Source: Herbiconiux oxytropis
GTDB lineage: Bacteria; Actinomycetota; Actinomycetes; Actinomycetales; Microbacteriaceae
Assembly: GCF_024979315.1 (NCBI RefSeq)
Contig: NZ_JANLCK010000010.1
Coordinates: forward strand, 1 to 64,000
DNA: 64,000 nt
Direction: 5' to 3'
Shown here: in pieces, positions 23,190 to 43,427 of the stretch
Position numbering within the stretch: position 1 is the first letter of the stretch
Layout: each line of letters opens with the position of its first letter
Notes under the pieces: generated by a model
The model's database searches: none
Seen by the model: only the letters and a program-made list of their open reading frames with translations
Told to the model about the DNA's origin: nothing
Made by a program: the position numbers and the translations under genes

Positions 23190-23609
23190 CTACAGAAGGT
23201 CTTCGATACCCTCGTGGGAGAACTTTTCCAGAGCGTAGGCAGTGTCCGGGAACTCGTTGAGTTCGGCGACCTTGCCGTTCTCTGAGAAGCGGAAGTGGAC
23301 AGCGTAGAAGTTCTCGTAGTCGAGCCCCTTATTCGTGACGGCTCTGGTTGTCACCTTGAGCGCCACTTTGTAGCCTTCGACGATGACGTCCGTGATCTCG
23401 GGTGTGAGACCGTTCGGGTAGACGAACTTCGCCACCTTTGCAACATTTGCGAACCCTTCGTGCCCGAAGTACTCAGCGTGCCCGACTTTGTAGTAGGCGT
23501 CTGGTTCAACGAGATGCTCGTAAACTGCCGGGTCGAAGGTGCAGAAGTAGTCGTAGAACTGCATTGCGAGCTGTCGTGACTTCACGTCGATGTCGGTGAT
23601 TTCTGTCAT
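23190..23609 (-). CDS. SnoaL/NTF2-like small enzyme, paralogue 1
   Basis: A 139-aa protein of the NTF2-like/SnoaL fold. It has DPAVYEHLVEPDAYYKVGHA near residues 28-47, FGHEGFANVAKVAKF, TDVIVEGYKVALKVTTRA and YENFYAVHFRFSENGKVAEL. This cup-shaped fold often catalyses isomerisation, cyclisation or dehydration of small hydrophobic ligands. It is about three quarters identical by eye to the gene at 28386. It is the second gene of the leftward unit behind the decarboxylase-like gene. The ATG at 23609 follows a GAAAGGAACACC site. Confidence 0.8.
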   Translation of the reverse strand: MTEITDIDVKSRQLAMQFYDYFCTFDPAVYEHLVEPDAYYKVGHAEYFGHEGFANVAKVAKFVYPNGLTPEITDVIVEGYKVALKVTTRAVTNKGLDYENFYAVHFRFSENGKVAELNEFPDTAYALEKFSHEGIEDLL

Positions 23610-23731: not shown

Positions 23732-24631
23732 TCAGATGGTGAGGGGAAGGCTTTCCACGACGAACATCGTGCTGATTGTCTCGTGTGCTACGTCTGCCAC
23801 GATCAGGCTGGCGCTCACAAACCGACCTACGTCTAGGTCGTCAAGAGACTCCGCCTCACTGGGCCAAAACTCGAGGTGAAGCGGCTTCGCCACAAACTGC
23901 TTTTTCAGCAGCTGGCCCTTGTTCGCGTTCACGTCGGTGGACACAATGCTGCGGTCAACAAAGCCCTTATAGTCGACCGTCGGGATCTCGCGCACCGCCA
24001 TTACCGGAACCGCCCCGACGAGCTTGGTTTCGTCCTCGGGAGCTGCGGCATTCAGGGGTCCAGCCACTTGCACTCGCAGACTTGCGATTCGGTGACTCTT
24101 TCGATCGACCGTGATCAGTACATCGTCGCCTTCTTCGACCGAGGACAGGTCGCCAGCTACTTCTGACCCGTTCAGATAGAACCGGATGTCTCCGAACTTC
24201 TTCAACATGCCATAGACCTGTCCGGAGAAGATCAGCATCTCCGGAACGGTTTTGTCGTGGGCAGGAGCCGCGCCGTCGACAAATTCCCAGCCGGCCTGCG
24301 CTTTCGTTCCTCTGTGGTCGACGGAGGACCAGAATGAGAACCCTGTGTATGGCGCGACACGACCGTCTCGTCCACGGAAATGTGGCGACGTGAACGCCAT
24401 GATCGTGCAGTATGCAGGCGCATCGAGATCCACTTCCAAGGGGGGCGGGGCGATGAGCTTCTGCAACGCCGTATGGGTCGTCTCGAATGTCAACTGCAAG
24501 CGGGTCATGTTGCTGTGCTGGGGTGCATCGTACCCGTGCATGGCGGCCGTTCCTGGCCGCGCTCCCAGCACATTCGATACTCCGGCGGGGTTCTGGTCTG
24601 TGCCATAATCCGCCCGGTCAATTCTCGACAT
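23732..24631 (-). CDS. Acetoacetate-decarboxylase-like protein, paralogue 1
   Basis: A 299-aa protein with the acetoacetate decarboxylase fold. The key region PEMLIFSGQVYGMLKKFGDI (about residues 133-152) parallels the family motif (GRExYGxPKKxG) that carries the Schiff-base lysine. CTIMAFTSPHFRGRDGR precedes it. Homologues act as decarboxylases, aldolase-dehydratases or cyclases, so the reaction is open. It is about 75 percent identical by eye to the divergent 25058 gene. The ATG at 24631 follows AAGGGGAG with 4-nt spacing. It starts 84 bp from operator A. Confidence 0.78.
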   Translation of the reverse strand: MSRIDRADYGTDQNPAGVSNVLGARPGTAAMHGYDAPQHSNMTRLQLTFETTHTALQKLIAPPPLEVDLDAPAYCTIMAFTSPHFRGRDGRVAPYTGFSFWSSVDHRGTKAQAGWEFVDGAAPAHDKTVPEMLIFSGQVYGMLKKFGDIRFYLNGSEVAGDLSSVEEGDDVLITVDRKSHRIASLRVQVAGPLNAAAPEDETKLVGAVPVMAVREIPTVDYKGFVDRSIVSTDVNANKGQLLKKQFVAKPLHLEFWPSEAESLDDLDVGRFVSASLIVADVAHETISTMFVVESLPLTI

Positions 24632-24714: not shown

Positions 24715-24777
24715 TACGAATCGCGGTTCATACGAACCTTGATTCGTAAGCTATGACTGCGCCACAGAGCTTGTCAA
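24715..24777 (-). promoter_or_regulatory. Promoter with 34-bp dyad operator A
   Basis: Read leftward: a -35 TTGACA (24777-24772), an 18-bp spacer, a -10 TAGCTT (24753-24748), and a 34-bp dyad at 24715-24748 overlapping the -10 by one base. The dyad (+ strand) is TACGAAT-N5-TTCA-N2-CGAA-N5-ATTCGTA. It has the same layout as the modules at 24917 and 30757 and drives the leftward decarboxylase-like/SnoaL pair. Confidence 0.75.
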
Positions 24778-24916
24778 GTAGGGCTGCAAATCCCCGATGC
24801 GCGGGCGACCTGCGAGCTCGGGGCGTGCGGCTGCGCGTCGGCGTGACGGACAAGTCCAGAGCTCTCGAGGCTAACTGGGAAACAGCCCTAACGGAGCCTA
24901 TTGCGGTGAGTTCAAC

Positions 24917-24978
24917 TTGACAGTGAACGAGGGCCCGATTACGTTACGAATCACCGTTCGCGCGAATGACCATTCGTA
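24917..24978 (+). promoter_or_regulatory. Promoter with 34-bp dyad operator B
   Basis: TTGACA (24917-24922), a 17-bp spacer, TACGTT (24940-24945), and the dyad at 24945-24978 with form TACGAAT-N5-TTCG-N2-CGAA-N5-ATTCGTA, the cleanest copy (all four blocks perfect). It drives the rightward operon starting at 25058. The likely binder is the TetR protein encoded at 29905. Confidence 0.78.
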
Positions 24979-25057
24979 GTCGGCGGGAGTGAACACCTCA
25001 GGGTGGCACAACGCTTCAGACCAATGTCGTTCTACGCACCTAGTAAAGGGGAGCATG

Positions 25058-25954
25058 ATGTCAATAACCGATCGGGTGGACTACGGGACAGACAACAATC
25101 CCGCCGGCGTTTCCAATGTTCTAGGTGCCCGTCCCGGGACATCCGCAATGCATGGGTACGAAGCTCCTCAGCACGCCGACATGACGCGAGTCCAGTTCAC
25201 CTTCGAGACAACTCACGATGCTCTGCAGAAGCTCATCGTGCCCCCGCCCCTCCAGGTCGATCGGGACAGGCCAGCATTCTGCACCATCATGGCCTTCACA
25301 TCGCCGAATTTCCGCGGGCGAGACGGCCGGCTGGCTCCCTACACGGGCTTCGCCTTCTTCGCCGGCATCGACTACAAGGGGACCCCGGCTCAGGCGGGAT
25401 GGGAGTTTGTCGACGGAGCAGCTCCGGCACACGACAAGACCATCCCCGAGATGCTGATCTTCTCTGGCCAGGTCTACGGGATGCTGAAGAAGTTCGGCGA
25501 CATCCGGTTCTACCGCAACGGGCTCGAAGTCGCGGGAGATCTGTCGACAGTCGAAGAAGGCGACGACCTCCTGATTACCGTTGACCGGAAGAACCGGCGC
25601 ATCGCAAGCCTCGGAGTCAAAGTGGGCGCCGCCATCGGCGGAGCATCCACTCAGACAGCAGCGACGGTGGGGGCAGTGCCAGTTCTTGCCGTACGGGAAA
25701 TCCCTACGGTGGACTACAAGGGATACGTGGACCGCAGCATCGTGTCCAGCGATGTCAACGCGAACAGCTTCCAGGTGCCCACGAAAGAGTTCTCAGCCGA
25801 ACCGCTGCAGCTCGAATTCTGGCCGAGCGAATCAGAATCCCTCGATCAACTCGAGGTGGGCGAATTCATCGCCGCTCGAGTGATCGTCGCAGATTCTCCT
25901 CACGAGACCATCAGCAGCATGTTCGTCCTGGAACAGCTCCCACTGACTCTTTGA
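25058..25954 (+). CDS. Acetoacetate-decarboxylase-like protein, paralogue 2
   Basis: A 298-aa paralogue of the 23732-24631 product. It has the same PEMLIFSGQVYGMLKKFGDI lysine-containing motif, NPAGVSNVLGARPGTSAMHG near the N-terminus and VREIPTVDYKGYVDRSIVSS late. Two ATGs occur, at 25055 and 25058. The second is chosen because it keeps the same 4-nt distance to AAAGGGGAG as in the paralogue. It is the first gene of a rightward operon with a reductase, cupin, SDR and SnoaL gene. The substrate is unknown. Confidence 0.8.
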   Translation: MSITDRVDYGTDNNPAGVSNVLGARPGTSAMHGYEAPQHADMTRVQFTFETTHDALQKLIVPPPLQVDRDRPAFCTIMAFTSPNFRGRDGRLAPYTGFAFFAGIDYKGTPAQAGWEFVDGAAPAHDKTIPEMLIFSGQVYGMLKKFGDIRFYRNGLEVAGDLSTVEEGDDLLITVDRKNRRIASLGVKVGAAIGGASTQTAATVGAVPVLAVREIPTVDYKGYVDRSIVSSDVNANSFQVPTKEFSAEPLQLEFWPSESESLDQLEVGEFIAARVIVADSPHETISSMFVLEQLPLTL

Positions 25955-26023
25955 GACATCTACCGGATACCGAGCAACACCGCGCCGCCGTCGTCTCCGA
26001 CGCCTGAAGAAAAGTTGTTCCAA

Positions 26024-26989
26024 ATGGAAGCCTACGAAACCGAGTTCGAGAGCTTTGTGGTCACCCACGTCCGCGACATCGCGGACCGCGTGAAATCCCT
26101 CCGGTTCGAACCGACCCACCGCCGCCCAGTGGTCCCGTGGGCACCCGGCGCGCACCTCGACTTCCGCTTGGGATCAGGATTGGTGCGCCAATACTCCCTC
26201 TGCGGCGAACCATCCGATGACCGCGGCTACACAGTCGGAATCCTTCTTGATCCGGCCAGCCAGGGCGGATCAGAGGCCATGCACCGGCTCGCGGAGGGTG
26301 ACACCATCGAGATTCGAGGTCCGCGCAACAACTTCGAGCTCGTTCCGGCATCTCAATACCTGTTCTTCGCCGGTGGAATCGGCATCACGCCCATTCTTGC
26401 CATGGTGCGGAGCGCCGCGGAATCGGCGGTGCCTTGGCGTCTGGTCTACGGCGGTCGCAATCGCTCATCAATGGCGTTTCAAGACGAGCTGCGTGCAGCT
26501 CGCGGCGGAGAGCTCAGCATCATCCCCGAGGACACCGACGGCCGTGCAGACTTTGCGCGCGAACTGTCGCTCGCCATACCTGGAACGGCAATCTACGCGT
26601 GCGGTCCCGCGCCGATGCTCGACGCACTGGCCGCATCATGCTCGGCGCTCGGCCTCGAGGCACAACTCCATGTCGAGCGTTTCAAAAGCTCTGGTGAAGT
26701 GCACGCGCACCAGCCCGCGGATGGTTCCTTCGAGGTCGAGCTGGCGCGCACCGGAGAGGTCATTCCCGTGTCGGCGACTCAGTCGATCGTCGACGCCATC
26801 CTCCCAGCTCGCCCGAACCAGCCCTACTCGTGCCTCGAGGGCTACTGCGGTACGTGCGAGACCAAGCTGCTTCTGGGCGAACCCGATCACCGCGACGAAT
26901 ACCTGTCAGACGATCAAAAAGCTGCGAACGACACCGTCATGCTCTGCGTCAGCCGTGCAAAAGGCCGCCGTCTCGTTCTTGACCTGTAA
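26024..26989 (+). CDS. Phthalate-dioxygenase-reductase-type (FMN/2Fe-2S) oxidoreductase
   Basis: A 321-aa electron-transfer protein with three domains. The flavin domain has LVRQYSLCGEPSD (about residues 53-65). The NAD(P)H domain has YLFFAGGIGITPILAMVRSA (about 111-130) and TAIYACGPAPMLDAL. The C-terminal plant-type ferredoxin has YSCLEGYCGTCETKLL and a final Cys in VMLCVSR, giving C-x4-C-x2-C-x29-C. It normally feeds a Rieske oxygenase or a similar terminal enzyme, but none is encoded nearby. ATG 26024 is preferred; TTG 26015 is possible. Confidence 0.9.
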   Translation: MEAYETEFESFVVTHVRDIADRVKSLRFEPTHRRPVVPWAPGAHLDFRLGSGLVRQYSLCGEPSDDRGYTVGILLDPASQGGSEAMHRLAEGDTIEIRGPRNNFELVPASQYLFFAGGIGITPILAMVRSAAESAVPWRLVYGGRNRSSMAFQDELRAARGGELSIIPEDTDGRADFARELSLAIPGTAIYACGPAPMLDALAASCSALGLEAQLHVERFKSSGEVHAHQPADGSFEVELARTGEVIPVSATQSIVDAILPARPNQPYSCLEGYCGTCETKLLLGEPDHRDEYLSDDQKAANDTVMLCVSRAKGRRLVLDL

Positions 26990-27016
26990 CAACCATTCAA
27001 CGAAGAAAGGATCATC

Positions 27017-27586
27017 ATGACAACCGACACCCCCCCGGCCGCCCGGCCATCCATCCAACCCTTTACCTACGTAGACGCCCCGGAGCTCCTCGAATCCGGG
27101 GTCATGGAGTTCAAAGAGATTCCTGAGGCGTCTATCGTCAACGCGACTGACGACTCCATGGGAGTGGGCCTGTTTTCGAAGGTCCTTTTCCGCGACGTGC
27201 CCCCTGAAGGATCCGACCGCACCGACGGACTCAGCCTCGTCCACGCCTGGCTCGCTCCTCACTTCGAGCTCCCGCCCCACAGCCATGATGGTGACTGCCT
27301 GTACTACATCGCGTCTGGCACCCTGATCCTTGGGAAGCGCACACTGGGCGCCGGCGACGGGTTCTTCGTGCCGAAGGACTCGCCCTACCGATACACGGCA
27401 GGACCGGAAGGCGTTGAGGTAGTGGAGTTCCGCACCTCGATCAAGTTCGACTACAAGTTCGCGGACAGCAACGATGCTCGCTGGAAGGACCGCTACGCGT
27501 ACGCCACCAGCCACCGCGATGAGTGGGTCTCTGCGCGCGACGAATTCCTGAAGGACAAGACCTCTGAAACGGACGTGACCGCATGA
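27017..27586 (+). CDS. Cupin-domain protein
   Basis: A 189-aa single-cupin protein. Cupin motif 1 is APHFELPPHSHDGDCLYYIA (about residues 82-101), with metal-ligand candidates His91, His93 and a Glu/Asp after them. Motif 2 is GAGDGFFVPKDSPYRYTAGP (about 111-130), which lacks a clear second-motif His. It could be a metal-dependent isomerase or oxygenase, or a sensor of the substrate. RBS AAAGGA. The stop overlaps the next ATG (ATGA). Confidence 0.83.
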   Translation: MTTDTPPAARPSIQPFTYVDAPELLESGVMEFKEIPEASIVNATDDSMGVGLFSKVLFRDVPPEGSDRTDGLSLVHAWLAPHFELPPHSHDGDCLYYIASGTLILGKRTLGAGDGFFVPKDSPYRYTAGPEGVEVVEFRTSIKFDYKFADSNDARWKDRYAYATSHRDEWVSARDEFLKDKTSETDVTA

Positions 27587-28344
27587 GCCGCGCGGTAGTC
27601 GTCGGGGGGGCGTCCGGCATCGGATTCGCCACCGCACAGGCGCTGCACGACGACGGGTTCGACGTGACGATCGCGGACGTCAACCTCGAAGCGGCACAGG
27701 CTGCAGCAACAAAGATTGGTGGCGACACCTCGGCGATCACGATGGACGTGACCAATGAGGAATCCGTCGCGGCCGGCTTCGCCGGAATCACCGACCTGGC
27801 CGCGGTTGTCAGTTGTCCGGGCTTGACCTTCGTGGGGGCGCTCACCGAACTTTCGTTCACGGCGTGGCAGAAGACCGTCGACGTGTGCCTGACCGGAACG
27901 TTCCTGGTGCTCAAGCACGCCGGGCTGGCAATCGCTGAGGGTGGCAGCATCACCGTCATCTCGTCCCTCAACGCACGTCAGCCAGGTACCGGAATGGGTG
28001 CCTACTGCGCATCCAAGGCCGGAGCCACGATGCTCGTGGAAGTGGCTGCGCTCGAGCAGGGAGTACGCGGAGTCCGCGTCAACGCGATCCAGCCAGGCAG
28101 AGTCGAAACCCCGATGACGGCAGGTTCGGAGATGGTCCCCGGGCTGCTCGAGCAGTTCAACGACAACACCCCCCTCGGCCGCTCCGGTCAGCCGAAAGAG
28201 ATTGCCGACGTCGCAGCATTCCTCGCGTCGGACAAGGCGACCTGGATCACAGGAGCAACCTTCGACATCAACGGCGGCGCCCACCTGCAGAAGTACCCGG
28301 ACATGCTGGAACTCACCCGGCCGTTCGCCTCACAGCCGGCCTAG
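27583..28344 (+). CDS. Short-chain dehydrogenase/reductase
   Basis: A 253-aa classical SDR. The cofactor loop VVVGGASGIGFATAQAL is at residues 4-20, and the Asp in TIADVNLEAAQ after strand 2 indicates NAD preference. The catalytic Ser is in SITVISSLNARQ and the YxxxK in MGAYCASKAGATM. The C-terminal WITGATFDINGG is typical. VVSCPGLTF replaces the usual NNAG segment. It is coupled to the cupin gene by ATGA. It probably oxidises a hydroxyl or reduces a ketone of the island's substrate. Confidence 0.9.
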   Translation: MSRAVVVGGASGIGFATAQALHDDGFDVTIADVNLEAAQAAATKIGGDTSAITMDVTNEESVAAGFAGITDLAAVVSCPGLTFVGALTELSFTAWQKTVDVCLTGTFLVLKHAGLAIAEGGSITVISSLNARQPGTGMGAYCASKAGATMLVEVAALEQGVRGVRVNAIQPGRVETPMTAGSEMVPGLLEQFNDNTPLGRSGQPKEIADVAAFLASDKATWITGATFDINGGAHLQKYPDMLELTRPFASQPA

Positions 28345-28385
28345 TCACCTATCAGCCCCCTACAGACTTTGCAAAGGAAGACGTT

Positions 28386-28811
28386 ATGACTGACACGAAA
28401 GATATCGACGAGCGATCTCGCGAACTCGCCCTGCACTTCTACGATCACTACCTCACCCTCGATCCTGCAGTTTACGAGCCGATCGTCGAGCCGGACGCCT
28501 ATTACAAGGTCGGGCACACCGAGTACTTCGGCCACGAAGGCTTCGCAACGGTAGTGAAATCGATAAAGTTCCTCTACCCGAACGGCCTCACTCCCGAGAT
28601 CACCGACATCATCGTCGACGGCTACAAGGTTGCGCTCAAGGTCACCACGCGGGCGGTCACGAACGCGGGGCTGGACTACGAGAACTTCTACGCTGTCCAC
28701 TTTCGGTTCTCAGAGAACGGCAAGGTCGCCGAACTCTACGAGTTCCTGGACTCGGCATACGCAAACGAGAAGTTCTCGTACGAGGGCTTCGTGGAAGCGC
28801 TTTCCAGCTGA
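28386..28811 (+). CDS. SnoaL/NTF2-like small enzyme, paralogue 2
   Basis: A 141-aa paralogue of the 23190 product. It shares DPAVYEPIVEPDAYYKVGHT, EYFGHEGFATV, LTPEITDIIVDGYKVALKVT and LDYENFYAVHFRFSENGKVA. The differences lie mainly in the N-terminal helix and the C-terminus. It is the last member of the tightly packed run 25058-28811. A strong hairpin follows at 28842, so transcripts probably end or are processed there. Confidence 0.82.
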   Translation: MTDTKDIDERSRELALHFYDHYLTLDPAVYEPIVEPDAYYKVGHTEYFGHEGFATVVKSIKFLYPNGLTPEITDIIVDGYKVALKVTTRAVTNAGLDYENFYAVHFRFSENGKVAELYEFLDSAYANEKFSYEGFVEALSS

Positions 28812-28841
28812 TCCAGCGCCCACCCGGCAGGTCCACAACTC

Positions 28842-28906
28842 GGGTGCGGCGTCGCGAACCCTGGTCACTCTTCCTGATGACGAAACAGGGCCGCGACGCC
28901 GCACCC
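28842..28906 (+). terminator. Long hairpin with a perfect 15-bp outer stem
   Basis: GGGTGCGGCGTCGCG (28842-28856) pairs perfectly with CGCGACGCCGCACCC (28892-28906). Inside it, CCCTG (28859-28863) pairs with CAGGG (28886-28890) around a 22-nt loop. It sits between the SnoaL gene and the next SDR gene. No T-run follows. It may terminate, attenuate or stabilise the transcript. Confidence 0.6.
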
Positions 28907-28979
28907 CGCATTCATCACCGACCACCCGAACACGAAGCTGATCTGGCGCCCGCGGGCTGCTGGACATGAAGGGTAGAAC

Positions 28980-29729
28980 ATGTTCGTACTCGATGGAAAA
29001 GTCGCGCTCGTCACCGGCGCCGGCCAGAATGTCGGCGCAGGAATTGCCCGCACACTGGCAGCTCAGGGAGCCACCGTCATCGTCAACGACTTCCACCTAG
29101 ACCGCGCAGAGCGAACTGTCGCCGCGATCGTCGAAGCCGGAGGGGAGGCAAGAGCTCTACGTTTCGATGTCTCGGATTTTGCTGCGGTTGGTGAGGCGGT
29201 CGCTGACATCGCCTCGACCGAGGGACCCGTAGACATCCTCGTGAACAACGCCGGCACCGGGGGCCCCGAGCGGCTCATGCCTATGGAGCCATTCGCTGCC
29301 ACCTCGCCAGACGACTGGGCCACGATCTTGGCGCCGAACCTGTACGGCGTCTTGAATTGCTCCCGAGCCGTTCTGGGAGGCATGATCCAACGGCAACACG
29401 GCCGAATCATCACCGTGTCATCCAGTGCCGGTCAAGAGGGCCTTCCTATCGGTATCGCCTCATACTCCGCGGCCAAGGCTGGTCAGATCGGATTCATGAG
29501 AAGTATCGCCGCCGAGAACGCCAAGTACGGGATCACCTGCAACACCATCTCGCTCGGACTGGTCCTTGAAGACGCCAGCGCGCTCCAGCACTATGCAGAC
29601 GCAATTCCTCTTGGCCGAGTAGGCAAGCCGGAGGACCCGGCGTATTTGGCCGTGTATCTCTCATCAGACGAAGCCGACTGGATCACCGGTCAAACAATCG
29701 GAGTCAACGGCGGAAGTCTCATGATCTAG
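28980..29729 (+). CDS. Short-chain dehydrogenase/reductase
   Basis: A 249-aa classical SDR. It has the cofactor loop VALVTGAGQNVGAGIARTLA at about residues 8-27, DILVNNAGTGGPERL, the catalytic SSSAGQEG with Ser, and IASYSAAKAGQIGF as YxxxK (about 158-171). The C-terminus WITGQTIGVNGGSLMI is typical. DFHLDRAERT after strand 2 suggests NAD. It is separated from the SnoaL gene by 168 bp containing the hairpin. The ATG lies close behind ATGAAGGGTAGAAC, whose GAAGGG is the ribosome site. Confidence 0.9.
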   Translation: MFVLDGKVALVTGAGQNVGAGIARTLAAQGATVIVNDFHLDRAERTVAAIVEAGGEARALRFDVSDFAAVGEAVADIASTEGPVDILVNNAGTGGPERLMPMEPFAATSPDDWATILAPNLYGVLNCSRAVLGGMIQRQHGRIITVSSSAGQEGLPIGIASYSAAKAGQIGFMRSIAAENAKYGITCNTISLGLVLEDASALQHYADAIPLGRVGKPEDPAYLAVYLSSDEADWITGQTIGVNGGSLMI

Positions 29730-29904
29730 AAGGGGCCTCAGCCGCCACCGTCCAGTTGCTCCGGAACATCACGAGCGAGCCGCAGTGACGGTGCCCACGG
29801 CGCTACCAGACGAGGCGCTCACGTGAGGTGCTCTCGGTTCACACCGGCGTACCTCGCGAGGGGGACGGCCGGCCGGTAAACGACTTGACGGTAGGATTCT
29901 CGGC

Positions 29905-30582
29905 ATGTCCACTGCAAAAGTGACAGCCCAACGAAAAATCGGGTCCCGGCGAGCCGAAATTCAGGATGCTGCTGCAACGCTGTTCGCCCGGCAGGGGTAC
30001 AGCGGAACAGGGATGGAGCAGATCGCCGCCGCCGTAGGCCTCGTCCCTGCAAGCCTGTACAACCATTGGCCTTCGAAGCAAGCAATTCTGGCCGAGATCA
30101 TCGTGACCTACGAGGTCGAAACGCTTGAGGCGTTCAATCGTGCCATCAGGGACAAATTGACGGCAGGTGATGCGCTCTACGCTGCGGCAACGACCCGTCT
30201 GAGTTACCTCCTCCGGCATGGGCGGCAAGCTGCCATCACGGATCGCGAGAAGCTCTTGCTCGATGCGGAAAGCCTGACCAGGGTGCACGGACTCCAGAAC
30301 GCCCACTTCACAGGACTACGGGCTCTCGTGGAGCAGGGCCAACGACAAGGCGAGTTCGACCAAGACACAGACTCCCTGTTTGCAACAGTCGCGCTCCTGG
30401 AAATGGGAACCCGCCTAGCCACCTCATTTCTCCACCAAGCCGAGTACCCCTCGTGGGGCGAGGTCTCCGGCGCGGGGACGGTGCTTCAGATGTCAGACGG
30501 GGAAGTGCTGGCAAACATGGATGAAGCTTCAGCGCAGTACGCCACGATGGCGCTCCGCATGGTCTCTCACCACCCGGCCTAG
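29905..30582 (+). CDS. TetR-family regulator, probable controller of the three-operator regulon
   Basis: A 225-aa repressor. The helix-turn-helix spans about residues 14-60: RRAEIQDAAATLFARQGYSG, then TGMEQIAAAVGLVPASLYNH with recognition helix LVPASLYNHW. The rest is an all-helical ligand domain. It lies between operators B and C, each a 34-bp dyad fitting a TetR dimer or pair of dimers. No such dyad was found before its own gene. Assignment of the operators to this regulator is inference from proximity and site symmetry. Confidence 0.88.
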   Translation: MSTAKVTAQRKIGSRRAEIQDAAATLFARQGYSGTGMEQIAAAVGLVPASLYNHWPSKQAILAEIIVTYEVETLEAFNRAIRDKLTAGDALYAAATTRLSYLLRHGRQAAITDREKLLLDAESLTRVHGLQNAHFTGLRALVEQGQRQGEFDQDTDSLFATVALLEMGTRLATSFLHQAEYPSWGEVSGAGTVLQMSDGEVLANMDEASAQYATMALRMVSHHPA

Positions 30583-31073
30583 AACCTCGATGCCAAGACC
30601 GGTCCGCAGTTCAATTTGCGGCAGCGGCAATCGATAAAGCCGGCCTGATTCGGCGAGCATGCTTCCTGATGGGGCATCCGACGAGAGATGCTGCTCTCGC
30701 ACGACGACCAGGTCAGCTCGGATCGTGCCAAGTGAATCACGGGCTGAAAATCGCCCTTGACCAAGACGCTGAACGGCAGTAGCTTACGAATCAGCATTCG
30801 CACGAATCATCGTTCGTAGTGTCTGTCATAGCTCTATTCCAGTAACACGCACCCGGCCTACGCAGTAGCCCCGGTGCTGCAGCACAACAGACCCGAGAGC
30901 TCGCTTTTCCGTTGGTGACAAGACCAATCGGCAGACGAGCGTGTGCTGCAAATACCCGTCCAGTCACTCGCCTTCACCGCTGAAGAACCGACAGGACACC
31001 TCGTGGTCAAAGATGACCGGGAGAGACGCAACGCTTGCTCTCAGCGCATGCGTTGCCAGGACAGAGGCTTCCA
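30583..31073. other. 491-bp control region with long leader before the MFS gene
   Basis: It contains the promoter/operator module at 30757-30818. A leader of about 250 nt follows, with two notable structures: a perfect 12-bp palindrome GTGCTGCAGCAC (30874-30885) and a 7-bp stem GCAACGC (31028-31034)/GCGTTGC (31050-31056) just before the MFS ribosome site. No convincing small gene was seen. The second hairpin could influence translation. Confidence 0.55.
30757..30818 (+). promoter_or_regulatory. Promoter with 34-bp dyad operator C
   Basis: TTGACC (30757-30762), a 17-bp spacer, TAGCTT (30780-30785), and the dyad at 30785-30818, TACGAAT-N5-TTCG-N2-CGAA-N5-GTTCGTA. It has the same order and overlap as modules A and B. 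It drives the MFS-SDR-hydrolase genes at 31074-34557. Confidence 0.75.
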
Positions 31074-32543
31074 ATGACACAAGACAGCCAGCCCAAACCG
31101 CCCGCCGAGAAGCGACGGCCAAAACCAGGGCTATTGATAGCTACACTTGCGCTCTCCGTGATGTTGAGCGCGTTCGAGAGCTCGATGGTCTACGTCGCTC
31201 TGCCCTCCTTGATCGGAGTCTTCGACGTCGGTGCGGACCAGATCGCCTGGACCGTCACCGTGTATCTGCTCGTATCCGCCTCCTCAGCCGCACTCGGCGG
31301 TCGACTTGGCGACCTGTACGGCCGACGACGCGTGCTCATCATCGTGTGCATACTCGCCGGTGTGGGATCGATCGTCAGCGTGGTTGGAGGCGGGCTCGCG
31401 ATGCTCATCCTCGGTCGAGCCATCCAGGGCACGGCGGGGGCCGTCTTCGGACTGGCTTTCGGTCTCGCCCGCGAACACCTGCCCTCCAAGCGGGTCCCCG
31501 TTGCCGTCTCCCTGATTGGCGGGTCTGCACTTCTCGCCGGAGCCGCCGGTGGGCTGATCGCCGGCTCCTTGCTGCAATTCTTCGGCTGGGCATCGATCTT
31601 CTTCTTCGCCGCCCTCTTCGCTGTCGTGACCGTCATCGTCAGCCTCATCGTCCTGCCACGGGACACAGGGGCACGGAAGCGAGGGCCACTCGACCTCATC
31701 GGCGCCGTCGTCATGCCTGTCGCCATCAGTGCGATCCTGCTCGCCATAACCCTGGTTCAGACCGTAGGAGCTGCGAGCATCACGTTCATCGGCCTTCTCG
31801 CTTTCGGAATCGCAGCGCTCATCGGATGGGTGATCTGGGAACTACGGGTCAAACACCCCATCGTGAATGTGCGGCTCTTCAAGAGTCGCTCGGTGGCCGT
31901 ACCAATGGGCTCAGCCTTCCTTCTCGCGCTCGGGCCCGCCGGCGGATCCGTGATCGTCCTTCAGATCATCCAGCAGTACCCATTGGGCACAGACGGGGGA
32001 CTGGGACTCTCTCCGGCGACCGCAGGTGGCCTCGGCGCCATCGCAGCAGTACTGGCATTTGCGCTGAGCCCAGTTGGCGGAATGATCGCGCGTCGGCATG
32101 GTGCTCGCAGCGTCTTCATCCTCGCTGCTGCCCTGCAGACATTTCCGCTACTGCTCGTGATCTTCTTCCTTGGCAACTTCTGGTGCACGATGGCTGCCGT
32201 GCTCTGCGTCACGATCGGGAGCGCGCTGAACGTGGGTGCAATTGCGAATGTCCTGTTCGATGCGGTCTCCGCCGCGAACTCGAGCGAGATCACGGGAACC
32301 AGCACCACCGTGACAAGCATCGGACTGTCCGCGGCAACCGCAATCGCCGGAGTTGTGCTGGCCCTGTTCGCTGCTCCGGAAACGGGTCTCATCTCCGGGA
32401 CCGGCTTCCTCGTCAGCCTCGGGTACATGACGGTGATCGGTACCTTGAGCGTCTTGCTGGGGTTCTTCATTCCGAAACGGAAAGCATCAGAGCACCCGGC
32501 CGAGGGCGAGGAACTCGTCACCACTCTGCCAGGCGCAGCGTGA
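31074..32543 (+). CDS. MFS transporter, DHA2/EmrB-like
   Basis: A 489-aa transporter with about 13-14 hydrophobic helices, as in the 14-TM DHA2 branch of the major facilitator superfamily. The loop 2-3 signature GGRLGDLYGRRRVLI is at about residues 77-91, and the N-terminus is charged (KPPAEKRRPKPG). It could import the island's substrate or export a toxic intermediate. The ATG at 31074 follows AGAGG. It is first in the operon from operator C; an SDR and a hydrolase follow. Confidence 0.88.
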   Translation: MTQDSQPKPPAEKRRPKPGLLIATLALSVMLSAFESSMVYVALPSLIGVFDVGADQIAWTVTVYLLVSASSAALGGRLGDLYGRRRVLIIVCILAGVGSIVSVVGGGLAMLILGRAIQGTAGAVFGLAFGLAREHLPSKRVPVAVSLIGGSALLAGAAGGLIAGSLLQFFGWASIFFFAALFAVVTVIVSLIVLPRDTGARKRGPLDLIGAVVMPVAISAILLAITLVQTVGAASITFIGLLAFGIAALIGWVIWELRVKHPIVNVRLFKSRSVAVPMGSAFLLALGPAGGSVIVLQIIQQYPLGTDGGLGLSPATAGGLGAIAAVLAFALSPVGGMIARRHGARSVFILAAALQTFPLLLVIFFLGNFWCTMAAVLCVTIGSALNVGAIANVLFDAVSAANSSEITGTSTTVTSIGLSAATAIAGVVLALFAAPETGLISGTGFLVSLGYMTVIGTLSVLLGFFIPKRKASEHPAEGEELVTTLPGAA

Positions 32544-32629
32544 AAGAGGGTACGGGCACCGCGCGAAAGGCCCTTTGGGTCGACCTGGCCAGCAACAAGT
32601 CCACAGAAGGCGCGAACCGAAAGGAACTG

Positions 32630-33406
32630 ATGTCCTACACACACCCCAAGTCGCTCGAAGGCAAAGCAGTAGTGGTCACGGGAAGCGCCCGTGGGATTGG
32701 GCGAGGGATTGCTCGTACCCTCGCACGCAATGGGGCTCGGCTGCTGGTCACCGACATCCTGGCCGACGATCTCGAGACCCTACGCGAGGACATGACAAGC
32801 CACGGTACCGACGTGCACAGCATCGCGGCAGACCTCCGAGAACCTGATGCGGCCGAACGGATCATCGAAGAGGCTTATCGCAAATTTGGAGCCGTCCATG
32901 GTCTCGTCAACAACGCAATGGCCATCAAGCCGCCGTCACCGTTGGAATGTCAGACATTGGCTGATTTCGACCTCGCTATAAGCACCGGTCCTCGAGCAAC
33001 GTTCGCTCTCATGAAGGCGGCCTACCCGCATCTTGTCAGCGCAGGCGGGGGCTCCATAGTGAACTTCGGATCCGGCGCCGGCGCTGCAGGAGAACCCGGT
33101 TTCGCCTCGTACGGTGCTGCCAAGGAGTCGATTCGTGGACTGTCTCGAGTGGCCGCGCTCGAGTGGGGTGCCGACAACATTCGAGTCAATGTCGTCCTTC
33201 CTTTCGCGCGGACCGAGGGAACGGACTATTGGGAGCAGACTGACCCAGAAGCATTCAATGCGGCCGTCAACGCCGTACCCCTCAAGCGAATCGGGGACAG
33301 CGAGAAGGACGTCGGTGCGCTGGTTTCGTTCCTGCTGAGCGATGATTCGACCTACCTCACCGCACAGTCAATCTTTGTTGCGGGTGGATCAGGCGTTTCG
33401 AGGTAG
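32630..33406 (+). CDS. Short-chain dehydrogenase, paralogue of the 35372 gene
   Basis: A 258-aa SDR. It has VVVTGSARGIGRGIARTLAR at about residues 14-33, an Asp in LLVTDILADDLE, GLVNNAMAIKPPSPL replacing NNAG, and the catalytic pair IVNFGSGAGAA (Ser) and FASYGAAKESIRG (YxxxK). The C-terminus has FLLSDDSTYLTAQSIFVAGG. It closely resembles the oppositely oriented 258-aa SDR at 35372-36148, so the pair arose by duplication. ATG at 32630 follows AAAGGAACTG. Confidence 0.9.
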   Translation: MSYTHPKSLEGKAVVVTGSARGIGRGIARTLARNGARLLVTDILADDLETLREDMTSHGTDVHSIAADLREPDAAERIIEEAYRKFGAVHGLVNNAMAIKPPSPLECQTLADFDLAISTGPRATFALMKAAYPHLVSAGGGSIVNFGSGAGAAGEPGFASYGAAKESIRGLSRVAALEWGADNIRVNVVLPFARTEGTDYWEQTDPEAFNAAVNAVPLKRIGDSEKDVGALVSFLLSDDSTYLTAQSIFVAGGSGVSR

Positions 33407-36243: not shown

Positions 36244-37470
36244 CTACTTCGAAGTGTCAGACAGCGACGTACCCTGTGTGCGGGCGACTTGACCGAGCCA
36301 GGAAAGGCTGGGCTTGGGTTTGCGCTCGAAGGTTTCGCGGTCGACGGCGATGAGGCCGAACGTAGGGTGCCAGTGGCCCCACTCGTAGTTGTCGAGCAGA
36401 CTCCAATGAAGGTAGCCGCGGACGTCGGCCCCCTCGCCGATGGCGGCGATCATGCCCTGCAACGCTCCGGTCGTGTACTCGATTCGGCGATTGTCATCGG
36501 CCGTGGGTATTCCGTTCTCGGTGACGAGGATGGGGAGGCCTGTGACCTCCCATGTGTGACGGATAGCCATGCCGAGCGCGTCGGGACGGTAGGCGGCGCC
36601 GGTCTGAGTGTTGTCGGGGTGTTCGGGGTGGGGGACGATGCCGTTGGCGTCGACCTGCTGGCTGGAGTAGGACTGCACGCCGACCCAGTCGTCTCCGCGG
36701 GAGCCTTCGAGGTAAAGGTCTTCCTGGTCGTAACGAATGTGGGTGAGCTTGTCCTCGTTGCCGGGCGTCGAGGTCAGGGCAGCATTGGCGATCGTCCAAC
36801 CGATCTTCGCGTCGGTGTGCTCGCGCAGGATACGGCGGGCTGCGTGGTGGATCTCGACCATTCGGTGCCCGATTCGAGGTTCGGGCGTGGGGAGGTTCGC
36901 GGCGATCCGTTCGCGCTGAGCTTCTCCGTCGACGGTCGGGCTCTGCCATTCACTGATGAGGCCGGATGTCATCGCTTCGCGGATCATCACTGTCATCGCC
37001 TGCATGTTGGGTTCGTTCATCGTGGCGACCCATGTGACCCCGTCGAGGATCTGGGTCGCGGCAGTGACGAAGAAGCTGAACCGCTCGACGGCGGTGTCGC
37101 TCATCCACCCTCCCTCGTTCGCGAACCACGCCGGAGCGGTGAAGTGCTGAAGGGTGATCACCGGTTCCAGACCGAGTTCGAAGGCGGTTTCGATCATCCG
37201 GCGGTAGTGAGCCAGCTCGGCTCGCGAGATCTGACCGGGGCGCGGCTCGATGCGAGCCCACTCGATGCCGAAACGGTAGGCGTTGAAGCCCGCTGCCGCG
37301 AGCAGTTCCATGTCTTCGCGGTAGCGGTGGTAGCTGTCGACGGCGTCTCCGCTGAATTCCATTCCAGCCGCGGCCTCCAGCGCCCACCAGTCGCTGTTGA
37401 TGTTGTTGCCCTCGATCTGGTGCGGCGCGGTTGAGGCACCCCACAGGAAAGTGGAAGGAAGATCGGTCAT
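36244..37470 (-). CDS. Glycoside hydrolase family 1 (beta-glucosidase-like)
   Basis: A 408-aa GH1 enzyme, slightly shorter than the usual 440-480. It has the N-terminal FLWGASTAPHQIEGNN (residues 8-23), the acid/base Glu153 in ATMNEPN and the nucleophile Glu318 in LVTENG. Sugar-subsite residues are seen in HWSLLDNYEWG. It lacks a signal peptide, so it acts in the cytoplasm on imported glycosides. ATG 37470 follows AAAGGATCCTGAA. It is in the operon with GH3 and an MFS transporter. Confidence 0.93.
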   Translation of the reverse strand: MTDLPSTFLWGASTAPHQIEGNNINSDWWALEAAAGMEFSGDAVDSYHRYREDMELLAAAGFNAYRFGIEWARIEPRPGQISRAELAHYRRMIETAFELGLEPVITLQHFTAPAWFANEGGWMSDTAVERFSFFVTAATQILDGVTWVATMNEPNMQAMTVMIREAMTSGLISEWQSPTVDGEAQRERIAANLPTPEPRIGHRMVEIHHAARRILREHTDAKIGWTIANAALTSTPGNEDKLTHIRYDQEDLYLEGSRGDDWVGVQSYSSQQVDANGIVPHPEHPDNTQTGAAYRPDALGMAIRHTWEVTGLPILVTENGIPTADDNRRIEYTTGALQGMIAAIGEGADVRGYLHWSLLDNYEWGHWHPTFGLIAVDRETFERKPKPSLSWLGQVARTQGTSLSDTSK

Positions 37471-37561
37471 TTCAGGATCCTTTCGAGATCGAAACCGCCG
37501 CGGCCGAGGTCGCCCGGGGGTGTTGTTGTCGCGGGTTGAGTTGGATGAGGAAGTCGTACGG

Positions 37562-38581
37562 TCAGCCGGCGGCTGATCGTGTGGAGTCTTTGACAGACTG
37601 TTCGGCGATCCACGTGAGATCAGGGATGTGGCCGATCTCGAGGGCTTTGAGGAAGAGCCTCTCTTCGCGTGGCTGGCTTTGTTCGAAGACGTCGAGTAGC
37701 TCACCGGACGGCGCGGTCTCTCCCATGATCTGGTCCCAGTTGGCGACAACGTCTTCGCTGGTCAGGTCCGGGTTGAAGTACCCGCGGGTGCCCGCCAGGA
37801 AGACGCGGGCGATGCGCCCGCCTCCAGCGGTGAAGGCTTCTCCTGTCGTGGGCGCGTTCTCGTGGAGAAGTGGGGCTATCGCCGTGGCGACTTTGTCGGG
37901 TTGAAGGGTGCTGCGCATGAAGGTGATGAGTTCGGTTTCCTCTCCTCCTCCGCTCGCTCCGACTGTCTCGGTGAATGCCCACGGCATCAGGGTGTTCGCG
38001 ATGATCCCGTGCTCTTTTCCGGCTGCGGCGACCTGACGGGCTGCGGCGAAGACCGCCAGCTTGGACACGGCGTAGTCGAGTTCGTATCCCGTTGGCCCGT
38101 ACCAGAATCCCGTTCCGACTGCAGAGGAGGTGAACAGGATGCGGCCGTAGTTCTGTTCGACCATGTGCGGCCACGCGGCCCGGTTGAGTTGCAACGACCC
38201 ACGCACGTTGATGTCGAAGTACATATCCAGCCCCGGACTCGGCGCGTTGTGGACCAGTTCCGAGCCATCCATGACCTTGCCGGCTGGGACACCGGCGTTG
38301 TGGATGACAATGTCCAGGCGTCCGAATTCCTCGATCGTGCGGGCCACGAGAGCTATCGCGTCGTCGTCGTCACCGATTCTGCCGCCGACGGCTATTGCTG
38401 TGCCGCCCAGAGCGCGGATCTCGTCCCGGACGTTCTCAGCGCGCTGCACATTGGCAGGAAGCTCGTTGACGACCACCGTCGCACCCCGGCTTGCAAGATA
38501 GCGGGCGTGGGCTGCACCGATCCCTATTCCCGCCCCTGTCACGATCGCCACACGACCATCGAATCGAAGCTGCTCTGTCAT
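37562..38581 (-). CDS. Short-chain dehydrogenase with C-terminal extension
   Basis: A 339-aa SDR, longer than the classical 250. It has VAIVTGAGIGIGAAHARYLA at about residues 11-30, DIVIHNAGVPAGKVM, FTSSAVGTGFWYG (Ser) and ELDYAVSKLAVFAAA as YxxxK. About 85 extra residues follow the Rossmann fold, including PTTGEAFTAGGGRIARVFLA, as in the dehydrogenase part of multifunctional-enzyme-2-like proteins. It probably acts on a larger hydrophobic or acyl substrate. It lies between GH3 and GH1. Confidence 0.87.
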   Translation of the reverse strand: MTEQLRFDGRVAIVTGAGIGIGAAHARYLASRGATVVVNELPANVQRAENVRDEIRALGGTAIAVGGRIGDDDDAIALVARTIEEFGRLDIVIHNAGVPAGKVMDGSELVHNAPSPGLDMYFDINVRGSLQLNRAAWPHMVEQNYGRILFTSSAVGTGFWYGPTGYELDYAVSKLAVFAAARQVAAAGKEHGIIANTLMPWAFTETVGASGGGEETELITFMRSTLQPDKVATAIAPLLHENAPTTGEAFTAGGGRIARVFLAGTRGYFNPDLTSEDVVANWDQIMGETAPSGELLDVFEQSQPREERLFLKALEIGHIPDLTWIAEQSVKDSTRSAAG

Positions 38582-38630
38582 CGGTCCTTCTCCTTCATGT
38601 TCTGTGCTGGCGTGTTCATCAGTGAGCTGG

Positions 38631-41093
38631 TCAACGTCGAAACTTCGGGTCTGGGGTGGGATTCAGTTGCGTTGTCGATGCCTTGCTGAGGTACGAGCGC
38701 TGGCCTTCCAGGTCCACAGTGTCGCCCGTGAGCGTGAACGGTACGGCCGCCATGACCTGATCCGAGCTGGACCCGACGCGGACGGCGGCCGGCCCCGGTT
38801 CGACGACGAAACGACCGTCGATGCCGGTGAACCCGAGCTGTGAGGCCTGCACCGTGCACGAGAAGGAACCGGTCTCCTGAGGGGCGAGCATTGCTCGGGC
38901 GAATCCGACGAGCTGCAGTTCTGGCCTGGTGATTCCGATCACAGCCTGGGAGATATAGAACTGGACGATCTCCGAACCTGCCCGCTCCCCCGTGTTGGTC
39001 ACCTGGACCGTGATCGTGACGGCGCCGCCGTCTGTGGGCACCGTGTCGGCGCTGACCGTCGCGTTCGAGTACTCGAATGAGGTGAAGCTCGCGCCGTGCC
39101 CGAAGGGGTAGAGCGGACTGTTCTCGAGGTCGATGTAGCTGCGGAACATGTCACCGTCGCTGCGGCGGTAGCCGCTGCCGCGCTTCTGGCTGTAGTACAG
39201 CGGCACCTGCCCGGTCGCGCGGGGGATCGTGTAGGGCAGCTTCCCGCTCGGGTTCGCGTCACCGAACAGCACTGACGCGACGGCCTGCGATCCGTACGGT
39301 CCGGGGTAGTAGGCGACGAGGGAGGCGGCGAGCAGCTCGTCGACGTCCGCGATCGCGTAGGGGCGACCTTGGTAGTACACGCCCACCAGGGGGGTACCGG
39401 TCGCGGAGACGGCCCGCACCAGTTCGACCTGATGCGGGGGAAGCTCGATCTTTGCGGCGTCTGTGCCCTCGCCCTCGGTGATTCGCGTACCGAACCACCC
39501 CCCGCGGCCGCCGATAGCGAGAACGACGATGTCCGCTGCTGCGGCTGCCTCAACAGCTGCCGCGACGTCCTGAGGATCGTCGGGCCGGATGTTCACGCCG
39601 ATCGTGCTGGTGACTTCGCTGGTCGGTGAGACGGTGCGCAGAGCTTCCGCGAGATCCATGGCGCCGTAGGAGTGGCGAACGAGGGCGTCTGTGTCGATGC
39701 TCATCAGCTGCGCGTACTGCTCGGCACGTTTCACCGCCTCCTCGGGACTGATCTCCGGTGAGGAGTCCGACATCGTACTCACCCCGGCCATCCGGGATTC
39801 CCCGGTCATGATCCCCTTCGTCATGTCCAAGCTGGAGGGGTAGGTGTAGGCAGCGAAGTTGACCATGGCGGAGTCGGCATTGGGGCCGATCACGGCGATG
39901 CGCACCCCTCGCTGGAGTGGCAGTGTGCCGTCGTTCTTCAGAAGAGTGATCGACTCCTCGGCCAGCGACCGGGACAGGTCCTGCCCCTCGGCAGCGATCC
40001 GGTTCAGCTCGATAGGGTCTTCGTTCACGTAGGGGTTCTCGAACAGGTCGAGTGCGAACTTGTCGACCAAGACGCGACGAACGGCCTCATCGAGCACGCT
40101 CTCGTCGAGGCGGCCGTCTTCGACAGCGTGCACGAGGTGTCCGCCGTAGCCGACGACGGAGGGAAGCTCCACATCGAGACCTGCGGTGAGCGCGAGCAAT
40201 CCTGCGTCTGCAGCCGTCGGCGCGATGAACTGGCGGGTCGCGAGCCATTCAACGGTGCTGTAGTCCGAGACGACGCTACCCGTGAATCCCATGCGATCGC
40301 GGAGGAGCTCGGTGAGAATCGCGTGGCTGGCACCCACCGGGACGCCGTCGATCTCAGAGTAGGAGTTCATGACGCTGCCGAGGCCGGCGAGCTTGATGGC
40401 TGCTTCGAACGGCGTCGCGTACACGTCGTACAACTCCCGCTCGCCCAGCTGCGTCGCCGCCATGTTCTGGCCCGCCTCAGTCATCGCGTAGCCGAGGAAG
40501 TGCTTCGCCGTGGCAAGCACTCCTTCGCGAAGGTCGTCGCCTTGGAGCCCGCGCACGAAGCCGACTCCCATGGCGGTGGTGAGGTAGACGTCCTCGCCGT
40601 AGGTTTCGTGCACACGGCCCCACCGCGCGTCACGAGCGATGTCCAGCACAGGCGAGAGAGCATGAAGGGACCCGACGGAACGCATCTGTCGGCTGATCAC
40701 TCGCGCCATCTCCTCGACGGCATCCGGGTTCCATGTTGCGGCCAGCCCGATGGCTGTGGGGAAGGACGTGTATCCGGGTGCGAGAAAGCCGTTCAGCGCT
40801 TCGGCGTGGAACATGGCGGGGATTCCCAAGCGAGTGTTCTCTCGCAGATAGTGCTGCACCTTGTTGGTGATGGTCGCAAGGTTGTGGGGAGATGCGGCCC
40901 CCATCATGGCAAGGTTCGAAACGTGCCCGATGCCGTCCTTCATGATCTCGTCGAGGACTTTGTCGTCAGGGCCGTCTGGCCCCAGCAGGGCGGTCGGCAT
41001 GATCGCGGACACCTGCTGAGCTTTCTCTCTCAGGGTCATGCGACCGAGCAGGTCGTTGGCCTGTTCCAGGGGAGACAGGGACGATTCAGGCAT
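38631..41093 (-). CDS. Glycoside hydrolase family 3 (beta-glucosidase-like)
   Basis: An 820-aa GH3 enzyme with the full three-domain layout. The TIM-barrel domain (about 1-370) contains the KHF motif (198-200) and nucleophile Asp277 in VVSDYSTVEW. The alpha/beta sandwich (about 400-620) has SITLLKNDGTLPLQRG and VLAIGGRGGWFG. The C-terminal fibronectin-III-like domain (about 690-790) has VTITVQVTNTGERAGSEIVQ. No signal peptide is seen, so it is cytoplasmic. ATG 41093 follows GGAG at 7 nt; upstream in-frame codons lack conservation. Confidence 0.94.
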   Translation of the reverse strand: MPESSLSPLEQANDLLGRMTLREKAQQVSAIMPTALLGPDGPDDKVLDEIMKDGIGHVSNLAMMGAASPHNLATITNKVQHYLRENTRLGIPAMFHAEALNGFLAPGYTSFPTAIGLAATWNPDAVEEMARVISRQMRSVGSLHALSPVLDIARDARWGRVHETYGEDVYLTTAMGVGFVRGLQGDDLREGVLATAKHFLGYAMTEAGQNMAATQLGERELYDVYATPFEAAIKLAGLGSVMNSYSEIDGVPVGASHAILTELLRDRMGFTGSVVSDYSTVEWLATRQFIAPTAADAGLLALTAGLDVELPSVVGYGGHLVHAVEDGRLDESVLDEAVRRVLVDKFALDLFENPYVNEDPIELNRIAAEGQDLSRSLAEESITLLKNDGTLPLQRGVRIAVIGPNADSAMVNFAAYTYPSSLDMTKGIMTGESRMAGVSTMSDSSPEISPEEAVKRAEQYAQLMSIDTDALVRHSYGAMDLAEALRTVSPTSEVTSTIGVNIRPDDPQDVAAAVEAAAAADIVVLAIGGRGGWFGTRITEGEGTDAAKIELPPHQVELVRAVSATGTPLVGVYYQGRPYAIADVDELLAASLVAYYPGPYGSQAVASVLFGDANPSGKLPYTIPRATGQVPLYYSQKRGSGYRRSDGDMFRSYIDLENSPLYPFGHGASFTSFEYSNATVSADTVPTDGGAVTITVQVTNTGERAGSEIVQFYISQAVIGITRPELQLVGFARAMLAPQETGSFSCTVQASQLGFTGIDGRFVVEPGPAAVRVGSSSDQVMAAVPFTLTGDTVDLEGQRSYLSKASTTQLNPTPDPKFRR

Positions 41094-41195
41094 GTAGGGC
41101 TCCGTTGAGTGGTGTATCCGTACCGAGAGAGCGGCCGCGTCGGCCGACGAGGGTGTGAAGCGGCTCCGCATAGCTAGCGGGCCGCCTCACACTCG

Positions 41196-42578: not shown

Positions 42579-42709
42579 CAGAACTCCTTTGTTCAACGGT
42601 GTCAGCACGAAGTGATGCGCCTGCGAACTCGCCAACCACTGAGGCGGGTCATTTAGGCAGCAGGTAGAAGCAATGTCGAATCACGCTTCGGGTTTCAATT
42701 CCGATAAGA

Positions 42710-42733
42710 TAACACGAATCTCGAATTGCGTTA
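42710..42733. promoter_or_regulatory. Imperfect 24-bp dyad, candidate operator of the second TetR
   Basis: TAACACGAATCT and CGAATTGCGTTA form a dyad in which 17 of 24 positions obey twofold symmetry, with perfect TAAC/GTTA ends. It is centred between the MFS operon start (42578, leftward) and the TetR gene (42804, rightward), in the only AT-rich stretch there. It differs from the 34-bp operators A-C. Confidence 0.5.
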
Positions 42734-42803
42734 CGACTTTTTCGGATAGGGTCGATCAGGGTCGCCGCCGGAGACCTGGCCAAATCGACGGACAGGAGCA
42801 TTC

Positions 42804-43427
42804 GTGACAACAACCGTTCGGGCTACACCTCCGCGACGGAGCTACGCCAAGAGTGCTGCCATCCGACAGAAGATCCTCGATGCGTGCATCGAGGAATTTG
42901 GTCAGGTGGGCTTCTACGGCGCCACCATGAAGGACATCGCTGCCCGCGCCGGGATGAGTCATACCGGCCTGCTCCATCATTTCCAGAACAAGGAGTCGCT
43001 CCTGGTCGCGGTTCTTGAATACCGTGATGAACGGAGCACGGCTCTTACTCGCGCGGCAGCGGAGCGTCTCGGCAACACCCCTGAGGGTGCGGTTCGCTCG
43101 ATGCTCGAAGCGGTCGTCGCTAACGAGCTTGAACCGGGGCTTGCCGCCCTACATGCCTCGCTTTCGGCCGAAGCGACCTCCTCAGCTCATCCCGCCCACG
43201 AATACTTCAAAACGCGCTACCGCATGTTCCGTGGCTACTACGAGCAGCGCTTCATAGAAATGGCCGCCGAGGGGCTTCTCAACACCTCGATGACACCGCG
43301 CGCTCTCGCTTTCACCTTCGTAGCAATCCTCGACGGCCTTGAGATCCAGTGGTTATACGACAAGGAAGAATTCCGAATGGAGGACGTTTTCGAAGAATTC
43401 TTGTCCTCGATCAGTCCCAGCCAGTGA
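42804..43427 (+). CDS. TetR-family regulator of the glycosidase operon
   Basis: A 207-aa repressor. The N-terminal helix-turn-helix includes IRQKILDACIEEFGQVGFYG (about residues 18-37), TMKDIAARAGMSHTGLLHHF and NKESLLVAVLEYRDE. The C-terminal ligand domain has EPGLAALHASLSAEATSSAH, seen in regulators annotated as TetR_C_6-like. It is divergent from the MFS/GH3/GH1 operon and probably represses it until a glycoside or its breakdown product binds. GTG start after GGACAGGAG. Confidence 0.88.
   Translation: MTTTVRATPPRRSYAKSAAIRQKILDACIEEFGQVGFYGATMKDIAARAGMSHTGLLHHFQNKESLLVAVLEYRDERSTALTRAAAERLGNTPEGAVRSMLEAVVANELEPGLAALHASLSAEATSSAHPAHEYFKTRYRMFRGYYEQRFIEMAAEGLLNTSMTPRALAFTFVAILDGLEIQWLYDKEEFRMEDVFEEFLSSISPSQ

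Follow-up and report, generated by a model that had tools for sequence, protein, structure and literature searches.

The stretch of DNA analysed here, called the window, comprises positions 1 to 64,000 of contig NZ_JANLCK010000010.1 of Herbiconiux oxytropis (assembly GCF_024979315.1). It carries a cluster of predicted catabolic genes, including two copies of an ADC-family gene (adc1 and adc2) and genes for SnoaL-like proteins, short-chain dehydrogenases (SDR) and an MFS transporter, together with a gene for a TetR-family regulator starting at position 29905 (TetR 29905). Three promoters in this cluster are fused, at their -10 box, to a 34-base-pair (bp) dyad. From the arrangement of these sequences we consider, with a probability of about 0.7, that the three dyads serve a single local repressor as its operators, TetR 29905 being the most likely candidate. 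The elements of this putative switch are the following:

24748-24777, reverse strand: promoter 1, read leftward, with -35 TTGACA (24777-24772), an 18-bp spacer and -10 TAGCTT (24753-24748)
24715-24748, reverse strand: dyad operator 1, composed of two adjoining 16-bp palindromes, sharing the final -10 base of the adc1 promoter
24917-24945, forward strand: promoter 2, with -35 TTGACA (24917-24922), a 17-bp spacer and -10 TACGTT (24940-24945); hexamers and spacing identical in Agromyces albus
24945-24978, forward strand: dyad operator 2, from the pattern scan
30757-30785, forward strand: promoter 3, with -35 TTGACC (30757-30762), a 17-bp spacer and -10 TAGCTT (30780-30785)
30785-30818, forward strand: dyad operator 3, from the pattern scan
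29905-30582, forward strand: TetR-family regulator, presumed repressor of the dyads (PF00440, 3.4e-15; PF17932, 5.8e-9)

The initial annotation had placed three modules with the same parts in the same order at these positions, which was confirmed by re-reading the letters. In each module the last T of the -10 is also the first T of the dyad and, as in local repressor circuits of the TetR type, a palindromic operator overlaps the target promoter. The -10 hexamers of all three modules match TATAAT at only three of six positions, and a promoter tool requiring at least 4/6 in the -10 lists none of them; between 23000 and 35500 it made three finds, all elsewhere, versus 2.4 in shuffles. Thus, what supports the -35/-10 reading is the recurrence of one arrangement, in the window and in A. 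albus, and not a consensus score. A terminator scan (seven finds versus 8.0 in shuffles) was uninformative on operon ends.

The 34-bp dyad is composed of two abutting 16-bp palindromes, each RCGAAY-N4-RTTCGY (R, purine; Y, pyrimidine). Sixteen half-sites are available from four dyads, three in the window and one in A. albus: the first base is A or G in all 16, the second is C in 15, GAA follows in all and the last base is always T or C, so that all of them match R(C/T)GAAY and 15 match RCGAAY; the counts serve as a description of the motif and not as independent tests, since the pattern had preset some letters and two of the four dyads are orthologous. The initial annotation had described conserved blocks separated by variable N5 and N2 positions. 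The blocks are indeed conserved, but the central N2, which is the junction between the two palindromes, is constrained to pyrimidine-purine in all four dyads, and each N5 resolves into N4 plus one R/Y position. When the four promoters were compared in all six pairings, 22-29 of the 32 dyad bases were kept, versus 2-8 of the 17 bases before the -10 and 6-11 of the 32 bases downstream. The palindrome centres lie 16 bp apart, that is, about 1.5 turns. The earlier suggestion that the dyad could hold two dimers gains support because each half is itself a palindrome, giving four half-sites per dyad; two dimers could sit on one dyad, on almost opposite sides of the helix.

The dyad is rare. A scan of the window with the spaced dyad, allowing up to three mismatches, found three places (six strand matches); 100 shuffled versions of the window yielded no match. 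Extended to the whole genome of 4,127,253 bases, the same scan returned exactly these three sites and its reversed-pattern control none, so that the motif is not scattered at random, as the genome-wide check proposed earlier could have revealed. A looser search of the genome for the half-dyad ACGAAY-N4-RTTCG gave 11 strand matches, seven of them inside the dyads, versus two for the reversed pattern. Among 199 genomes of the family, the double palindrome occurs at up to one mismatch in six: this genome, four lexA promoters and one further genome (G066). A longer pattern was found in five of 394 genomes of the class, namely this one and four with the junction GTTCG-AT-CGAAC. Eight stretches of viral contigs (L069-L076) also carry an exact tandem RCGAAY-N4-RTTCGY site; six of the eight have CGAAC halves throughout and, judged by eye, none of the eight has the promoter arrangement of the window. 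These are possibly phage repressor or SOS-like sites.

The genes behind the three operators are:

23732-24631, reverse strand: ADC-family protein copy 1 (adc1), first behind operator 1 (PF06314, 1.1e-15; frame open to 24664)
23190-23609, reverse strand: SnoaL-like protein copy 1, behind adc1 (PF12680, 2.4e-7; frame open to 23672)
25058-25954, forward strand: ADC-family protein copy 2 (adc2), first behind operator 2 (PF06314, 2.1e-17; A. albus orthologue 83%)
26015-26989, forward strand: flavin/2Fe-2S oxygenase-reductase-like protein (PF00175, PF00111; probable ATG at 26024)
27017-27586, forward strand: cupin-like protein (PF07883, 24.2 bits, under the cutoff of 27.2)
27583-28344, forward strand: short-chain dehydrogenase SDR1 (PF13561)
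28386-28811, forward strand: SnoaL-like protein copy 2 (PF12680, 1.3e-6)
28980-29729, forward strand: short-chain dehydrogenase SDR2; reduced by deletion to a remnant at the corresponding position in A. albus
31074-32543, forward strand: MFS transporter, first behind operator 3 (PF07690, 3.5e-30; A. albus 81%)
32630-33406, forward strand: short-chain dehydrogenase SDR3, after the MFS gene (domain scan; counterpart in A. albus)

The proteins of adc1 and adc2 are 75% identical. The run behind operator 2 is interrupted by gaps of 168 bp before sdr2 and 175 bp before tetR, and sdr2, and also tetR, may or may not belong to the operator 2 unit. An open frame at 30941-33406 spans both the MFS gene and SDR3 but shares its reading frame with SDR3 alone, so that it is genuine only in its SDR3 half.

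A scan of contigs with TetR 29905, sensitive to close relatives only, confirmed one such relative, in Agromyces albus DSM 15934, which is about 70-71% identical. Many genes of the low-GC stretch around the cluster have counterparts in this organism. Its draft genome contains exactly one dyad at up to two mismatches, located upstream of the ADC orthologue and fused, in the same register, to the -10 of the orthologous operon behind TTGACA-17-TACGTT. Between the orthologous promoters (adc2 in the window versus A. albus), 29 of the 32 dyad bases and 6/6 bases of the -10 are kept, versus 7/17 in the spacer and 10/32 in the downstream flank. The two TetR proteins are in turn identical at all 26 of positions 34-59, which lie in the helix-turn-helix (HTH) region.

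Gene order differs between the two clusters. In A. albus a single dyad precedes adc-reductase-cupin-sdr1-snoaL-(sdr2 remnant)-mfs-sdr3, and tetR lies about 7.5 kb off, on the other side of the cluster; an internal deletion has left only the initial codons and the final 30 of sdr2 (L053:6326-6453). The window has an intact sdr2, with tetR placed between it and mfs, and here mfs has a dyad promoter of its own in the same register; likewise, the second adc-snoaL unit is under its own dyad, again in the same register. The direction of this rearrangement could be either way, by gain in the window or by loss in A. albus. We tentatively raise the possibility, itself rather doubtful, that the operators mark the pieces of an operon that has broken up, the double operator having been rebuilt, or kept by selection, independently of the surrounding promoter, because these promoters resemble one another neither in the spacer nor downstream.

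TetR 29905 has the composition expected of the family, with an N-terminal TetR_N HTH domain (PF00440, 56.0 bits versus a cutoff of 24) and a variable ligand-binding C-terminal domain (PF17932, 36.7 bits versus a cutoff of 26.4). It is the only intact regulator noted in both clusters, in the window and in A. albus. The compact TetR regulon of the initial annotation is well supported as regards the three operator-fused promoters, which account for every site detected in the genome and have their counterpart in A. albus; as for its binder, TetR 29905 is the best choice and would be the protein that recognizes the dyads. Close relatives of this protein are scarce: a profile of the two TetR sequences found only its own genome among 386 genomes of the phylum (E<=1e-25), the best matches in 199 genomes of the family show about 34% identity over half the protein, and those in 76 plasmid records are all below 60% identity, with 30 listed at 25-35%. 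Similarity to solved TetR-family structures is partial and concerns mostly the DNA-binding end. In front of tetR, TAGGAT stands seven bases before the ATG (window 29891-29907; six bases in A. albus) and resembles a -10 box for leaderless transcription.

Several observations weigh against the assignment of the dyads to TetR 29905. No dyad is present at the promoter of tetR itself in either species, and the gene is not divergent to a target, both neighbours running in the same direction. It thus shows neither autoregulation nor divergent placement, both common though not obligatory for TetR circuits; PMC3511530 gives placement divergent to the target as the usual arrangement of the family. Around 29 distant TetR homologues (25-35% identity), the 16-bp palindrome was found at one locus (L033) and a shorter 14-bp form at three, so that distant relatives give no support. 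Furthermore, A. albus represents a single comparison of orthologous operons and not an independent regulon. Finally, a second TetR gene lies in the same stretch at 42804 (TetR 42804, tetR2), and outside the A. albus cluster this protein has an intact homologue (44%) and two C-terminal fragments (68%), the latter lying where contigs begin.

The operators could belong to this second TetR, with the 29905 protein regulating something else, a possibility that we regard as unlikely. TetR 42804 does share the low-GC stretch, adjoins an MFS gene (mfs2) and has related sequences in A. albus, but its divergent intergenic region (42636-42803) is devoid of a dyad at up to three mismatches, as is the region in front of tetR 29905, and in the A. 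albus cluster the match to it is limited to 58 C-terminal residues and lacks the DNA-binding part. Considered in itself, the tetR2/mfs2 intergenic region shows CGAAT half-sites, among them a near-palindrome at 42677 with one mismatch; a search for inverted repeats there gave just one weak overlapping palindrome. Alternatively, an unlinked regulator encoded elsewhere might bind the dyads, since operators need not adjoin the gene of their regulator; in A. albus an IclR gene is situated directly upstream of the adc promoter. However, the only three dyads of the genome all lie around tetR, and a tblastn search covering the window found no counterpart of this IclR (best E 0.49), which makes an unlinked binder quite unlikely. 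Still harder to credit is that the dyads act as RNA hairpins in 5' leaders. The transcript would include them, and in the case of adc1 the leader allows the entire dyad to fold into one hairpin (z -1.82, equalled by 7 of 200 shuffles), but the other three leaders each adopt a different structure with z of 0.22, -1.41 and -0.32. With three of four leaders no better than shuffles, and that of adc1 somewhat better, this reading was rejected as highly implausible.

The most instructive rival is LexA, according to which the dyads would be tandem SOS boxes placing the genes under DNA-damage control. The Streptomyces LexA box is described in PMC9380542 as a 16-bp imperfect palindrome, tCGAAC-N4-GNNCGa, and the lexA promoters of four other genomes of the family (L005, L007, L008 and L009; LexA by Pfam and NCBIfam) carry two boxes in the identical 16-bp register, some with CGAAT halves. 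These four tandems, however, have T or C ahead of the core at 15 of their 16 half-sites, with A at the remaining one, and their junction is always AT, whereas in the window and A. albus a purine takes this place throughout, so that the half-site TCGAAC of the box TCGAAC-N4-GTTCGA is not found, and the junction is invariably pyrimidine-purine. The outer base is not decisive alone, as SOS-like tandems in four genomes of the class have an outer A, imposed by the pattern, and an AT junction. In this genome CGAAC-N4-GTTCG occurs at 14 places (one in the control); the surroundings of four were viewed and imuA' is the one named, the one SOS gene identified here, with a box, TCGAACATATGTTCGA, that fits the Streptomyces consensus. 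The targets of the dyads, on the other hand, are catabolic (ADC-family, SnoaL-like, SDR and MFS genes) and not genes of DNA-damage repair. LexA thus fits less well than TetR 29905 and is disfavoured on three grounds, the base ahead of the core, the junction and the nature of the targets; we consider it improbable.

If TetR 29905 is the binder, two dimers could occupy each operator, bound to nearly opposite sides of the double helix. With a start about seven bases past the -10, the first palindrome would extend from roughly -6 to +10 and the second from +11 to +26. Since the palindromes cover the expected start, the bound protein would act by repression and not activation, preventing the polymerase from melting the promoter or escaping from it. 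A substrate or intermediate of the pathway would then release the repressor, and this release would switch on adc1-snoaL1, adc2-reductase-cupin-sdr1-snoaL2 (perhaps with sdr2) and mfs-sdr3 jointly.

Such a switch would most likely work like the known two-dimer repressors of the TetR family, and it would join that kind if the 29905 protein binds. According to PMC4150764 and PMC10636190, CprB, QacR and DarR have operators for two dimers, as proposed here; the dimers of CprB bind a 22-bp site from opposite sides (PMC4150764) and DarR binds as a dimer of dimers on overlapping palindromes (PMC10636190). The sites of CprB and DarR are short or overlapping, whereas the operators of the window are two 16-bp palindromes that abut without overlap; two-dimer binding, shown for CprB, QacR and DarR, is a prediction for the present system. 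HlyIIR of Bacillus cereus, for which a title cited in PMC6657595 gives two dimers of a TetR-family protein bound to a long perfect inverted repeat, resembles the present case by description and differs in target and organism. RefZ probably also binds as two dimers, as its authors infer (PMC6657595), and a TetR with a 27-bp operator is mentioned in PMC5895659. Among solved structures, the best match to TetR 29905, limited to residues 8-73, is Mce3R of Mycobacterium tuberculosis, which differs by its double TetR motif in one chain and its non-palindromic site, as presented in PMC11667970. The tandem SOS boxes of lexA in the same family have the same CGAAY-N4-RTTCG pair and 16-bp register, but concern an unrelated protein family.

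The cluster lies in a region, between about 22 and 44 kb, where GC content drops from 0.68-0.69 to 0.60-0.65. Its ADC protein was found only in its own genome among 16 genomes of the genus and, apart from its own copies, as one weak fragment (E 8e-4) among 398 genomes of the family, these figures being sample counts from sets that evidently do not include A. albus. On plasmids, ADC relatives amount to one, at 33%, and a comparison with solved structures gave no match at E<=0.01. In A. albus, a conjugative coupling-protein gene follows about 1.7 kb past sdr3. The region is probably a rare, lower-GC, acquired catabolic stretch; no tRNA gene that could mark an island end was found in the window. 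Beside the regulon, at 36244-41171, there are genes for GH1, GH3 and another SDR protein, for which A. albus has counterparts. These neighbours suggest a glycoside as substrate of the pathway; the window scan found no dyads (up to three mismatches) at these adjoining glycosidase and SDR genes. Among the titles returned by literature searches, none dealt with this cluster or operator, and a pathway search gave no useful result.

This type of bacterial switch is well known, and the local example is new. Since a CGAAY-N4-RTTCG double palindrome is also present at lexA promoters of the same family, it calls for caution before an SOS box is named on sight. Collectively, the locus constitutes a self-contained predicted regulon within a catabolic cluster, with three promoters, a defined operator and a candidate repressor, and the switch could serve to find the inducer and hence the substrate of the pathway.

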